Shown here: piece by piece, positions 17,067-35,342 of the stretch
Layout of the letters: each line of letters opens with the position of its first letter
Numbering within the stretch: position 1 is the stretch's first letter
Source: Candidatus Edwardsiibacteriota bacterium
Lineage (GTDB): Bacteria; Edwardsbacteria; AC1; EtOH8
Length of the DNA: 42,148 bases
NCBI GenBank assembly: GCA_025453955.1
Contig: JALOPJ010000055.1
Span: 1-42,148 of the forward strand
Direction of reading: 5' to 3'
Translations under genes and position numbers: made by a program
Notes under the pieces: model-generated
Told to the model about the DNA's origin: nothing
What the model saw: only the letters and a program-made list of their open reading frames with translations
The model's database searches: none

Positions 17067-17612
17067 ATGACTATGCCCCGACCACCGATGCCGGTCAAGT
17101 ACTTCCTCGGCCTGATCTACTCGCCGCTGGTCAGCCTCTGGCAGCTGGAGCGCGACCTGCTGTCCCGGTTCGACTTCATCGACCAGCGCAGTCCCGTGCT
17201 GGAGTTCGACGCCTTCACGGACTACTACGCCGCGGAGATGGGCCCGCGCCTCTACCGCGCCTGGTGGAGCCTGCACCGGCTGCTGCCCCCCGACCGGCTG
17301 GCTGAGTTCAAGCTGCTCGCCCACGAGCTGGAACAGCGGTACGTCCTGCCGGGCGGCGGCGGCCGCGGCGTCAACATCGACCCCGGCTACCTCAACGAAT
17401 CGCGGCTGGTGCTGGCCTCCTGCAAGGACTTCGCCCACCGCGTCTACCTGGGGCAGGGCGTGTACGCCGAGGTGTCGCTGGTCTACCGCAAGGACGGCTT
17501 CGCCCCGCTGGAATGGACCTACGGCGACTACCAGGCGCCCGAGGCCCTGCGTTTCTTCCAGGCCATGAGGCAGGATTACCGCAAACAGCTGAAAGAGATC
17601 GAACATGACTGA
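17067..17612 (+). CDS. DUF4416 family protein
   Basis: PVKYFLGLIYSP...FTDYYAAEMG..LYR; NIDPGYL; typical DUF4416 signatures. Confidence 0.82.
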   Translation: MTMPRPPMPVKYFLGLIYSPLVSLWQLERDLLSRFDFIDQRSPVLEFDAFTDYYAAEMGPRLYRAWWSLHRLLPPDRLAEFKLLAHELEQRYVLPGGGGRGVNIDPGYLNESRLVLASCKDFAHRVYLGQGVYAEVSLVYRKDGFAPLEWTYGDYQAPEALRFFQAMRQDYRKQLKEIEHD

Positions 17613-18036
17613 TCCCGCAGCCGACCACGTATTCGAGTGGACGGTCCACCCGGTCCGGGAATCGATGCCCAAGGCCGTCATCGCCATCGTCTTCCCGGTC
17701 GCGGTCTCGGCGCTGGTGCTGCTGTGGACCCGCTCGGCGTTCTGGTCCGGACTGGGGTTCGTCCTGTTGTTCGCCTCTGAGTTCCCCTTCTTCATCCGGA
17801 CCGTCTACCGGTTCGACGGCGACGGCGTCACCATGAAGCGCGGCGGGGTGACGATCGCCAGGAAATGGGAGCAGGTCCGCAGCTACTATCCCGACCGTAA
17901 CGGGGTCCAGCTCTCGCCCTACTTGAAACCATCCTGGATGGAGAATTTCCGCGGCGTGTATCTGCAGTACGGCAGGCACAAGGAGGAGATACTGGAACAA
18001 CTGGAACAGCGATTGCCACAACCCGCGAAACAATGA
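17605..18036 (+). CDS. Hypothetical membrane protein
   Basis: Two predicted TM segments; overlap with upstream CDS. Confidence 0.6.
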   Translation: MTDPAADHVFEWTVHPVRESMPKAVIAIVFPVAVSALVLLWTRSAFWSGLGFVLLFASEFPFFIRTVYRFDGDGVTMKRGGVTIARKWEQVRSYYPDRNGVQLSPYLKPSWMENFRGVYLQYGRHKEEILEQLEQRLPQPAKQ

Positions 18037-18082
18037 ATGTCATCCCGAGAATGCCCTCTTGCCTTACCAACCGAGGGATGGC
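18037..18082. repeat. REP-like palindromic repeat copy 1 (ATGTCATCCCGAGAATGC...CGAGGGATGGC)
   Basis: 46-nt ungapped similarity to 18104-18149 (about 36/46 identical) with CATCCC/GGGATG arms. Confidence 0.7.
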
Positions 18083-18103
18083 ACTGCAACAACCCATGAT
18101 AAA

Positions 18104-18149
18104 ATGTCATCCCGGGATTGCATTCCCGCCCTGCGAACTGAGGGATGGC
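18104..18149. repeat. REP-like palindromic repeat copy 2, overlapping the annotated GIY-YIG start
   Basis: ATGTCATCCCGGGATTGC...CTGAGGGATGGC; same spacing of CATCCC/GGGATG arms. Confidence 0.7.
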
Positions 18150-18435
18150 TCATCAAGATATGCATGATTATTATGCCTACATCCACGCCAACAATGACGA
18201 AGTCCTCTACATTGGCGTGACCAATGATCTGCGGCGCAGGATTTACGAGCACAAGACCAAGCTTATTCCCGGTTTTAGCAAAACACATACCTGCGATAGA
18301 TTGATCCACTTCGAGCATTTCACTGACATTAAGTATGCCATCGCTCGCGAAATACAACTAAAGCGGTGGCGTCATTCCAAGAAAGTGGTATTGATCGAAC
18401 TGAATAACAAACAATGGCGTGAAATACCTGTATGA
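18145..18435 (+). CDS. GIY-YIG (YhbQ/UvrC-N-like) single-domain nuclease
   Basis: YYAYIHANNDEVLYIGVTNDLRRRIYEHK...AIAREIQLKRWRHSKKVVLIELNNKQWREI; alternative start ATG 18160 (MHDYYAYI). Confidence 0.85.
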   Translation: MAHQDMHDYYAYIHANNDEVLYIGVTNDLRRRIYEHKTKLIPGFSKTHTCDRLIHFEHFTDIKYAIAREIQLKRWRHSKKVVLIELNNKQWREIPV

Positions 18436-18437
18436 TG

Positions 18438-18484
18438 CATCACCCTTCTATTTGACAGGCATGCTGCTTTTCTCAGGGTGACAT
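18438..18484. repeat. REP-like repeat downstream of GIY-YIG gene, inverted relative to the upstream copies
   Basis: CATCACCCTT...AGGGTGACAT hairpin; reverse complement begins ATGTCACCCTGAGAA, close to ATGTCATCCCGAGAA at 18037. Confidence 0.6.
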
Positions 18485-18507: not shown

Positions 18508-21252
18508 ATGAAGAATCTGTTTTCCCTTATCGCTTCCTGCCTTCTGCTTTCCTCACTCGGTTTTGCCTGGCAGCAGCGCGTGGCCTACGACATCGACGTC
18601 ACGCTGGACACAACGGCCCACTGGCTGCACGGCAGCGAGCGGCTGACCTACTGGAACAACTCACCGGACACGCTGCGCTCCGTGTGGTTCCACCTCTATC
18701 CCAACGCCTACAAGGACCTGGGCACCGCCCTGGCCGTCGAGGCCGAGGCCTTCCATGATTACCGCGGCCGCCGCCTGGCGGATCGTGACCGGGGGTTCAT
18801 CGAGATCAGCGCCATCCGCGCCGGCGGCGCGGCGCTGGCCCTGCGGCCCGGTGCCGACATCACCTCGGCCTGCTGCGACCTGCCGGCCCCGCTGGCCCCC
18901 GGCGACTCGCTGACGTTCGACATCGTTTTCGGCGTCAAGCTGCCGGCAATCGTCTCGAGGCTTGGCCACCAGGGCACGCACTATGAGATCTCCCAGTGGT
19001 ATCCCAAGATCGCCGTCTACGACGAGCTGGGCTGGCACGCCGACGGATACCACTACATCGGCGAGTTCTACGGCGAGTACGGGTCGTTCTCCGTCGGCAT
19101 CACGGCGCCGCGGGGCACGGTGATCGGCGCCACCGGCGACGAGATCGGCGGCACCGCCGACAGCGATTCCACAAACAACGGATCAACAAGCAATGACCCA
19201 ACCGAGTATTTTCTCTTCTGTGCCGAGAATGTCCACGACTTCGCCTGGTGCGCCGACGCCAAGTACGTCGTGACCGAGGAACTGCACCACGGCGTGCAGG
19301 TCAGGGTGCTGGCCCTGCCGCGCGACACGGTCAAATGGAAGAACGTGATGCAGTACGCCAAGGACGCCCTGGACTACTACGGCAAATGGTACGGTCCCTA
19401 TCCCTATGCGACCCTGACGGTCTGCGACGGGTCGATGCGGGCCGGCGGCGGCATGGAGTACCCAAATCTGGTGATCGTCTCCTCGGGCGAGGACAAGTTC
19501 ACCCGGTCGCTGGAGAACGTGGTGATGCACGAGATCGGCCACCAGTGGTTCTACGGCGTGCTGGGCAACGACGAGATGGACGAGGCCTGGCTGGACGAGG
19601 GCATCAAGCATCAACAGCTTCTCCGAGGAGCGCTATTTCGAGGAGAAGTACGGCCCCGAGGGCAACCTGCTGGCCAAGCCGCGGGCCCGCCGCTGGCTGC
19701 CGGAGCTGACCGACCGCTACGTCGGACGGATGCTGTACCACCTGTTCTCCGCCAGCCGGATGGAGCAGCCGGTGCTGACCCGCGCCTGCGAGGTGCGCGA
19801 ACCGGCCCTCTACGCCGCCATCGCCTACAAGAAACCGGCGATGATGATGTGGTGGTGGGGGTCATCGACAGCGTGGCGAAAAGGGATGTCCGGCCGTATT
19901 TCATGCCGATGCTCACCACCGCCGATCGCTGCGACTACGCCATCGCCTCGGTGGAGCGGGTCGAGCAACAGCGTGACCTCTACCGGGTCCGCCTCCAGCG
20001 GCAGGACAGCCTGGCGCTGCCGGTGTCGCTGCGGCTGACCGACGCCATCGCCAAGACCTACGACGTCCGCTGGAGCGGTACGCAGCGCGACACCGCGTTC
20101 TACCTGCAGACCGACGGCGCGCTGAACGCCGCCGTGCTGGACCCCGACGGGACGCTGCCCGAGACCGAACGCTTCGACAATCACTGGCCGAGGCGGTATT
20201 CCTTCACCCTGCTGCCCCGCCTGCCGTCGTTCGATTCATATCAGATGTGGGCCGTGCCGCTGCCGTGGTACGACGCGGTCAACGGGTTCCGGCTGGGCGC
20301 CATCCTGCACGGCGGCTACCTGGCCGACGGCGGCCCAATGACTGGCCGGCACCAGTGGACGGTGGTCCCCTACTGGGGCTTCAAGTCGCGGCAACTGAGC
20401 TTCAGCGCCGACTACCAGACGCCGGTCACCTCGCTGCCGATGCCGCCGCGGGTCTACGTTTCGGCCGGCAAGGCGTTCGACCTGGGCTGGGCCCGGCTGG
20501 GGCTGCGCCGGGCCTGGGGCCGGGCGTTGATGGCCCCGGAGCAGCGGTTCGACCTGCGGCTGTCCTACGACCGGGTGATCGACACGGCGCGGTTCTGGGA
20601 CTGGCGCGACATCGAGCCCGGGGAGTGCTGGATCGCGTCGGCCGAGCGCGGCTTCGTCCACTCGGAGTGGCTGCTGGGGTCGGACCTGCGGCTGGCCGCG
20701 GCCGCGGGTCTGAGCAACACGCCCGGCGCCGGCATGCGGAACTTCATGCGGACCGAGGCCGAGGAGCGGGCCTACCTGCGGTTCGGCAGGTACGTGCGGG
20801 TCGATCTGCGGGCCATCATCGGCCAGCTGGCCGGCGACCCGCCGGCCCAGGAGCAGTACTTCCTGTCCGGCGGCTTTCGCACCACGGGTTTCGACGACAT
20901 GATCGTCTCCTACCGGGGCTGGTGGTCGGCCCAGCAGCGGTACCACGTCGACGGCGGCGCCAACCTGCCGGGATACGCCGGCCGCCATATCCGCGGCACC
21001 ACGGTGGTGGCTGCGACCGTGTCGCTGCCGGTCCACCGGACCCCGGTCAGCCTTTTCGCCGGCGCCGGGCAGGTGCTGGACGACTGGACGGAGTTCAACC
21101 CCGGCGCGGTCATGGCCAACGCCGGTCTGGACCTGCGGTTGCCCGGCGTCCGGCTGCTGCTGCCGCTGTGGATCAACCGTCCGGAACCCGGCCAACGGCG
21201 GTTCGACTGGCGCTGGAAGATCGGCATCGGCGGGGCGATCAAGATCGGATGA
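18508..21252 (+). pseudogene. M1 family aminopeptidase with C-terminal beta-barrel-like region, interrupted by frameshift(s)
   Basis: HEIGHQWFYGVLGNDEMDEAWLDEG (HExxH-x18-E) then loss of frame at a 7-bp tandem duplication (19601-19614); original family sequence continues in another frame (FSEERYFEEKYG..., LFSASRMEQPVLTRA...YAAIAYKKPAM) and returns to the first frame near 19855. Confidence 0.75.
19601..19614 (+). repeat. 7-bp tandem duplication GCATCAA x2 causing frameshift
   Basis: gagGGCATCAAGCATCAACAGC; deleting one copy restores EGINSFSEERYFEEKYG. Confidence 0.85.
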
Positions 21253-35127: not shown

Positions 35128-35229
35128 CGTCATCCTGAGTATGGCATCCCGCCCGGCAAGACGAAGGATCTGTCCCCGGGCTCGTGGGATTCTTCGCGCG
35201 CAAGGCACGGAGTGTTTTTCAGAATGACG
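35128..35229. repeat. 102-bp repeat element copy 1 with terminal inverted repeats
   Basis: CGTCATCCTGAG...TTTCAGAATGACG; tandem to the copy at 35241. Confidence 0.85.
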
Positions 35230-35240
35230 GGTCCACTGTT

Positions 35241-35342
35241 CGTCATCCTGAGTATGGCATCCCGCCCGGCAAATCGAAGGATCTGTCCCCGGGCTCGTGA
35301 GATTATTCGCGTGCGGGGCACGGGGCGTTTCTCAGAATGACG
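35241..35342. repeat. 102-bp repeat element copy 2 with terminal inverted repeats
   Basis: CGTCATCCTGAG...TCTCAGAATGACG; highly similar to copy 1 along its full length. Confidence 0.85.

Follow-up and report, generated by a model that had tools for sequence, protein, structure and literature searches.

A small GIY-YIG nuclease gene enclosed by inverted [CT]GTC-headed palindromes: a candidate mobile repeat-nuclease element

The window, that is, the whole stretch of 42,148 nt that was analysed (contig JALOPJ010000055.1 of a Candidatus Edwardsiibacteriota bacterium), belongs to an assembly of 2.52 Mb that is 88% complete. A small GIY-YIG nuclease gene lies in it between palindromic repeats (REPs), and the features considered here are as follows.

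17605..18036, plus strand: left flank, a conserved ORF of 143 aa behind a DUF4416 gene; in relatives it adjoins the M1-peptidase gene
18037..18083, plus strand: REP copy L1, head TGTCATCCCGAGA, 3' arm GAGGGATGGC
18104..18150, plus strand: REP copy L2, head TGTCATCCCGGGA, its 3' arm lying over the annotated ATG at 18145
18160..18435, plus strand: small GIY-YIG nuclease gene, 91 aa from the ATG at 18160
18438..18484, minus strand: REP copy R, inverted, head TGTCACCCTGAGA on the minus strand, closing the heads-out pair
18508..21252, plus strand: right flank, M1-peptidase-like gene
35129..35229: two REPs, heads-out and without a gene between them, of a related subtype, GTCATCCTGAGT ... CAGAATGAC
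35242..35342: the preceding pair once more, in tandem

The two left copies are direct repeats (18036-18089 and 18103-18156; 54 nt, 76% identical), which agrees with the head-to-tail repeats 67 bp apart that the sequence-only reading had placed before the ORF, and the third repeat, past the stop codon at about 18438-18484 and with a reverse complement that begins ATGTCACCCTGAGAA, is inverted relative to them as that reading had stated. The start at 18160 (MHDYYAYI), which it had suggested in place of the ATG at 18145, also agrees with the homologues, most of which start 2-4 residues ahead of the YYVYI motif, and the gene is indeed richer in AT than its neighbours (GC 43.8% for the gene and 46.5% for the unit, versus 61.6% and 67.7% for the neighbours and 67.2% for the window). 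The minimal unit of ~450 bp which had been proposed is real, but it is best seen as a gene enclosed by a heads-out REP pair whose left REP is doubled. As for the proposed hairpins, the palindromes recur throughout the genome, but the focal copies folded alone were only weakly better than shuffled sequences (z -0.3 to -0.95); because isolated folding is weak, the hairpin claim for these copies rests on recurrence and not on folding energy. The 3' arm of L2 (GAGGGATGGC, 18139-18150) lies across the probable ribosome-binding region as well as the alternative start, ATG 18145, and a hairpin there could therefore limit translation of the nuclease.

Recurrence of the repeat in the source genome, which the sequence-only reading had proposed as a check, is pronounced: with at most one mismatch, GTCAYCCYGAGA has 66 genome sites versus 10 for the reversed pattern. 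Close repeat pairs are heads-out in 12 cases and of the opposite orientation in 2, and the 12 consist of 11 gene-less pairs (69-121 bp), including the two in tandem inside the window at 35129-35342, and the focal pair which encloses the gene. One pair, at C13:46139-46248, bears the subtypes CCCTGAGA and CCCGAGA, which the focal unit carries at its right and left end. Seven GIY-YIG matches were found in this genome. UvrC and a UPF0213-like gene behind tRNA-Ser are without REPs on both flanks, whereas each of the remaining five, i.e. the focal gene and four paralogues of the kind that the sequence-only reading had proposed to search for, lies between inward-reading palindromes of differing types (ATTCCCGCG-, ATTCCGAC- and ATCCCGGC-like at two genes, ATTGCGAGC-like at two, and the focal type). 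Moreover, the nearest family relatives of the focal gene (55-58%) are at other loci, beside the same REP subtype.

The focal ORF matches the GIY-YIG domain (PF01541, E 8.9e-13), and residues of catalytic type, Y7, Y17, G19, R27, H31, E64 and N83, are invariant in 48 homologues. The AlphaFold2 model of the protein has a pLDDT of 90.7; its nearest folds are UPF0213, Slx1 (of Slx1-Slx4) and UvrC, and the nearest PDB sequences are of the UPF0213/YhbQ type (1zg2 and 1ywl, E 4e-8), while no NCBIfam model fitted the protein. It thus belongs to the GIY-YIG superfamily, and is predicted to cleave DNA. Domain matches are to GIY-YIG and T5orf172 alone, and a Y1/HUH transposase domain is absent; hence the RAYT-like arrangement suggested at first holds only as an analogy, for neither is the protein a HUH/Y1 transposase nor are the repeats of the GTAG type. 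GIY-YIG enzymes are not known to pass through a covalent intermediate with DNA, and therefore mobilisation by such an enzyme would need host replication or repair, unlike that by RAYTs. Other affiliations were searched for and rejected: a phage origin (no match among 50,697 phage records at E 1e-5), a defence system (a single weak PADLOC match, E 0.006) and a known RNA family (no Rfam match).

GTDB genomes were searched with four paralogues from the source genome, which gave 80 loci in many phyla. Flank-to-flank inverted repeats (score of at least 28, motif-free) occur at 67% of loci, compared with 0.2% among 544 distant windows and 5.9% when flanks of different loci were paired. Palindromes that could be typed are present on both sides of 66 of 108 genes, versus none of 620 distant windows on the same contigs and none of 16 other GIY-YIG genes; one side or both have them at 86 of 108, versus 23 of 620 and 1 of 16, which bears out the clustering around GIY-YIG homologues that had been suspected. 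These lower-scoring other genes, which lack two-sided REPs, include L003 of the source genome. Small GIY-YIG proteins of the UPF0213/YhbQ type are the closest solved relatives of the focal protein in both sequence and fold. Copies in relatives, taken by coordinates, have REPs on both flanks in 22 of 33 cases. A typed REP is absent at 22 of the 108 genes, a figure that includes misses of the regular patterns used for typing, which undercount (L030 and L033, with CGTCTTT heads); the REP heads flanking L030, L033, L138 and L211 are CGTCTTT or CGTCG instead of [CT]GTCAT, and in the Rhizobium tumorigenes copy no clear REP was seen beside the gene. Judging by such heads, only [CT]GTC seems to be fixed. 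This head is near constant, whereas stems vary widely between loci with the complement kept; stem complementarity was not counted as covariation, because the P class described below is defined by its pairing. Taken together, we regard the association of this nuclease with REPs, and its specificity, as practically certain.

Two structural classes of REP are frequent. The P class has a perfect 8-bp stem, a 3-6-nt loop and usually a CCA tail, and its consensus folds strongly as DNA (z -4.6); the GA class has a stem of 5 bp with GA behind it, GC-GAA-GC being a frequent core, and its consensus DNA fold shows this shape weakly (z -0.8). The two flanks carry the same class at 64 of 66 genes. In a protein tree of 84 genes, built on 91 columns and with many forks unresolved, the class changes only twice, versus a mean of 26.5 and a minimum of 20 after shuffling, and in 76 of 77 cases a protein agrees in class with its closest counterpart from a different phylum (shuffled mean 38.8, maximum 54); these figures come from the fourth of four labelling schemes, with definitions made after looking at the data, the third having been discarded for a faulty pattern. 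With labels from automatic heads, a single switch between the two main classes was counted in 49 genes, and labels from stems only, which miss most of the GA class, gave 2 changes over 28 genes. Host relatedness does not explain this match, because the same phyla hold both classes and so does the focal genome, each class beside its own protein lineage. In GA-class REPs such as TGTCATCCTGAGCGAAGCGAAGGATCT, the core GCGAAGC lies between tandem G-A mismatches; this sequence forms a DNA mini-hairpin of unusual stability, a hint that the recognised form is single-stranded DNA and not RNA.

The link also appears between genomes. Over 59 genomes, with P-class presence taken as at least three heads, P-class heads are present in 11 of 11 genomes with a P-class gene versus 9 of 48 without one (p 6e-7), and outside the focal family in 4 of 4 versus 7 of 45 (p 0.0016); likewise, the excess of GA-class REPs is higher in genomes with a GA-class gene (p 2.5e-5). 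Exceptions exist: 31 P-class heads were counted in genome G001, which lacks a gene of the GIY-YIG subfamily, and its REPs could be relics left without their enzyme, or the gene could lie in an assembly gap.

Repeats of this kind have been described as CGTC REPs by Di Nocera et al. (2013, PMC3733652), in which CGTC is often TGTC, which are mostly HH dimers and include dRS3 of Neisseria and RPE-4 and RPE-6 of Rickettsia, and which 'apparently lack a dedicated transposase', no link to a transposase having been found. The four published families CGTC-1 to CGTC-4 have an 8-9-bp stem, a 4-5-nt loop and a CCA tail (PMC3733652). The repeats studied here resemble them in the CGTC/TGTC head, in the stem mostly starting with AT and in the paired elements, and the P class further has the stem, short loop and CCA tail (L001, L002, L137 and L144); they differ in that each is here paired with a GIY-YIG gene. 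The focal repeats show a [CT]GTC head with a palindromic stem, many copies and mostly inverted pairs, but the ~46-nt focal REP, of the GA class, lacks the published stem, loop and tail and therefore falls outside the four families and extends the description, as does the GA class with its 5-bp stem, tandem G-A mismatches and GC-GAA-GC tip. Relatives of the focal protein occur in S. meliloti, Azospirillum lipoferum 4B, Novosphingobium aromaticivorans DSM 12444, Sphingobium and Neisseria gonorrhoeae, and further in Bradyrhizobium, all of them CGTC-REP carriers or carrier genera (PMC3733652). In every inspected record of the first five taxa the gene is flanked by palindromes on both sides (CGTCATTCCCGCGCAGGCGGGAATC in N. 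gonorrhoeae, CGTCATCCTCGGGCTTGACCCGAGGATCCA in S. meliloti and CGTCGCCCCGTGCTTGACACGGGGC in N. aromaticivorans); hence, as independently predicted, species in which CGTC REPs were defined bear the gene flanked by their own REP, that of Neisseria being dRS3. The 'S. chlorophenolicum' of that survey we take to be Sphingobium. Among the open-access papers searched, none was found that ties a GIY-YIG gene to these repeats; subscription papers and preprints lay outside the search, and priority is thus unproven.

Comparisons of related genomes revealed insertion polymorphism. All nine family members compared keep the order DUF4416-orf143-M1 without the unit; the empty sites that the sequence-only reading proposed to look for in relatives therefore exist, and the unit is not an old, vertically kept locus. 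A genome of the same genus aligns up to 18015 and resumes at 18508, with an unrelated palindrome pair between. On Azospirillum plasmids, the unit of A. lipoferum 4B splits sufB-sufC, where A. oryzae and A. ramasamyi (~94.7% identical) have neither gene nor REP and Azospirillum B510 has a different palindrome. In Sphingobium, the site that carries the unit in TomMM7A is occupied in TomTYG64 and TYG74 by a single palindrome, which is perfect in TYG64 and could equally be an earlier REP or the remnant of a deletion. A 50-kb Sphingobium stretch contains gene-less and gene-bearing pairs (82, 85 and 380 bp) with common ends; the closest Sphingobium pair showed no presence/absence difference. Base-exact junctions and target duplications were unreadable in the Sphingobium, Azospirillum and G000/G001 pairs because these relatives are too diverged. 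Stops or frameshifts occur in the subfamily copies at L004, L041, L085, L091 and L153. Paralogues inside one genome are 36-75% identical, so that recent copying of the gene was not seen, and related genomes have near-identical orthologues, with one divergent gene per REP subtype; the gene itself seldom multiplies whereas the REPs do, as is known for RAYTs. At five loci (L126 in G001, L150, L154, L189 and L190) the unit or pair is absent and unrelated palindrome pairs are often found at the same intergenic spot, such as TGACCTAACCCC...GGGGTTAGGTCA and CCGTTCGGGCTGAGCTTGTCGAAG..., as if one palindrome family were replacing another.

We interpret the unit as a small mobile repeat-nuclease element in which the nuclease would be the dedicated mobiliser of its REPs, and give this reading a rough probability of 0.68. 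It draws on co-location, orientation, class match, genome co-occurrence, insertion polymorphism and conserved catalytic residues, from which we infer REP cleavage, the mobilising role and the route of copying. Most likely, the nuclease would recognise its own REP class by the [CT]GTC head and the hairpin in single-stranded or cruciform DNA, and would make a nick or cut at the head or close to it. From there, replication and repair by the host would place copies of the REP pair at other intergenic positions, in most cases lacking the gene and only seldom including it. This would resemble the working of RAYTs and REPtrons, except that the part of the HUH transposase is taken by an unrelated nuclease that acts non-covalently. 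The REPtron (RAYT/TnpA-REP with GTAG REPs; Nunvar 2010, PMC2817692; PMC8266576) likewise has a small nuclease gene between inverted, genome-wide palindromes, a head tetranucleotide that is conserved, non-autonomous pairs that lack the gene, and for each REP class one enzyme with few copies of its gene, but the present system is not homologous to it: the fold is GIY-YIG without HUH/Y1, and the head is [CT]GTC (TGTC at the focal locus) and not GTAG. Points that count against the proposed element are the divergence of the paralogues, REP-rich genomes without the gene such as G001, the 22 genes without a typed REP and the shortness of the alignment behind the tree.

The first of two main rivals, which we consider unlikely, is homing: the nuclease would cut solitary REPs or gene-less pairs and its gene would be copied in by repair, with the REPs spreading by other means. 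In its favour, GIY-YIG nucleases are a classical type of homing endonuclease (PMC1564403), pairs end alike with and without the gene, and the single palindrome of the two Sphingobium strains could be read as a target. It could equally be a deletion product, however; no such REP is present where the unit is missing, either at the focal locus or in A. oryzae and A. ramasamyi, and homing accounts neither for how the REPs spread nor for their class specificity. Homing endonucleases of the I-TevI type share the catalytic domain and possibly copying via repair; the focal protein is a domain of ~91 aa only, with no added DNA-binding modules, intron or single homing site.

The second main rival, a housekeeping or tamed nuclease that serves the host by resolving or trimming REP hairpins or cruciforms, its linkage to REPs reflecting regulation or maintenance instead of mobility, would fit the pattern of one divergent gene per REP subtype with near-identical orthologues, which recalls vertically kept RAYTs, and the presence of the branched-DNA nuclease Slx1 among the nearest folds; nevertheless, patchy presence, empty sites, decayed copies and two-sided flanking like that of mobile elements make such a role rather improbable. 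It is more improbable still that a RAYT/IS200-type transposase or an IS mobilises the REPs while the GIY-YIG gene rides along. Y1 transposase matches do occur in 6 of 7 REP-bearing genomes searched, but these REPs lie on both sides of none of 15 Y1/RAYT-type genes and G009 is rich in REPs without any Y1 gene, so that a RAYT-type gene as linked mobiliser was rejected; tracking of REP class across phyla would be unexpected for a passenger, and Di Nocera et al. likewise found no transposase link (PMC3733652). Finally, a common gathering of REPs and GIY-YIG genes in permissive intergenic gaps, which the unrelated palindromes at some empty sites show can attract palindromes, has next to no weight given the absence from all 620 control windows, the fixed inward orientation, the same class at 64 of 66 genes and its tracking of the protein tree, and simple chance proximity is ruled out by the controls with distant windows and other families.

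If the mobile repeat-nuclease element is real, REP systems arose at least twice, with unrelated enzymes, and a function would be at hand for a subfamily annotated as 'GIY-YIG nuclease family protein' or 'excinuclease ABC subunit C'. The CGTC REPs, such as Neisseria dRS3 and Rickettsia RPE, which were enzyme-less when defined (PMC3733652), gain a candidate gene, and this gene is present in easily grown, well-studied bacteria. The wider proposal, to which we give even odds, is that such minimal elements are spread throughout bacteria: a stand-alone GIY-YIG protein of ~90 aa would mobilise CGTC/TGTC palindromes without a covalent intermediate, would have an origin separate from that of RAYTs, and would explain dRS3, RPE and, in many phyla, the GTCATYCYGAGC-type repeats.

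Two minor observations concern neighbouring genes. At L143, on plasmid p1 of Planktothrix agardhii, a subfamily GIY-YIG gene that has such repeats in its vicinity is bordered by an MmeI-type restriction gene and by drmA, the helicase gene of DISARM. In the M1-peptidase-like ORF of the window, a Gly/Arg/Pro-rich stretch of low complexity at ~19690-19860 follows the HEIGH motif and runs for ~100 residues, and its composition suggests two compensating frameshifts, through either assembly error or decay.
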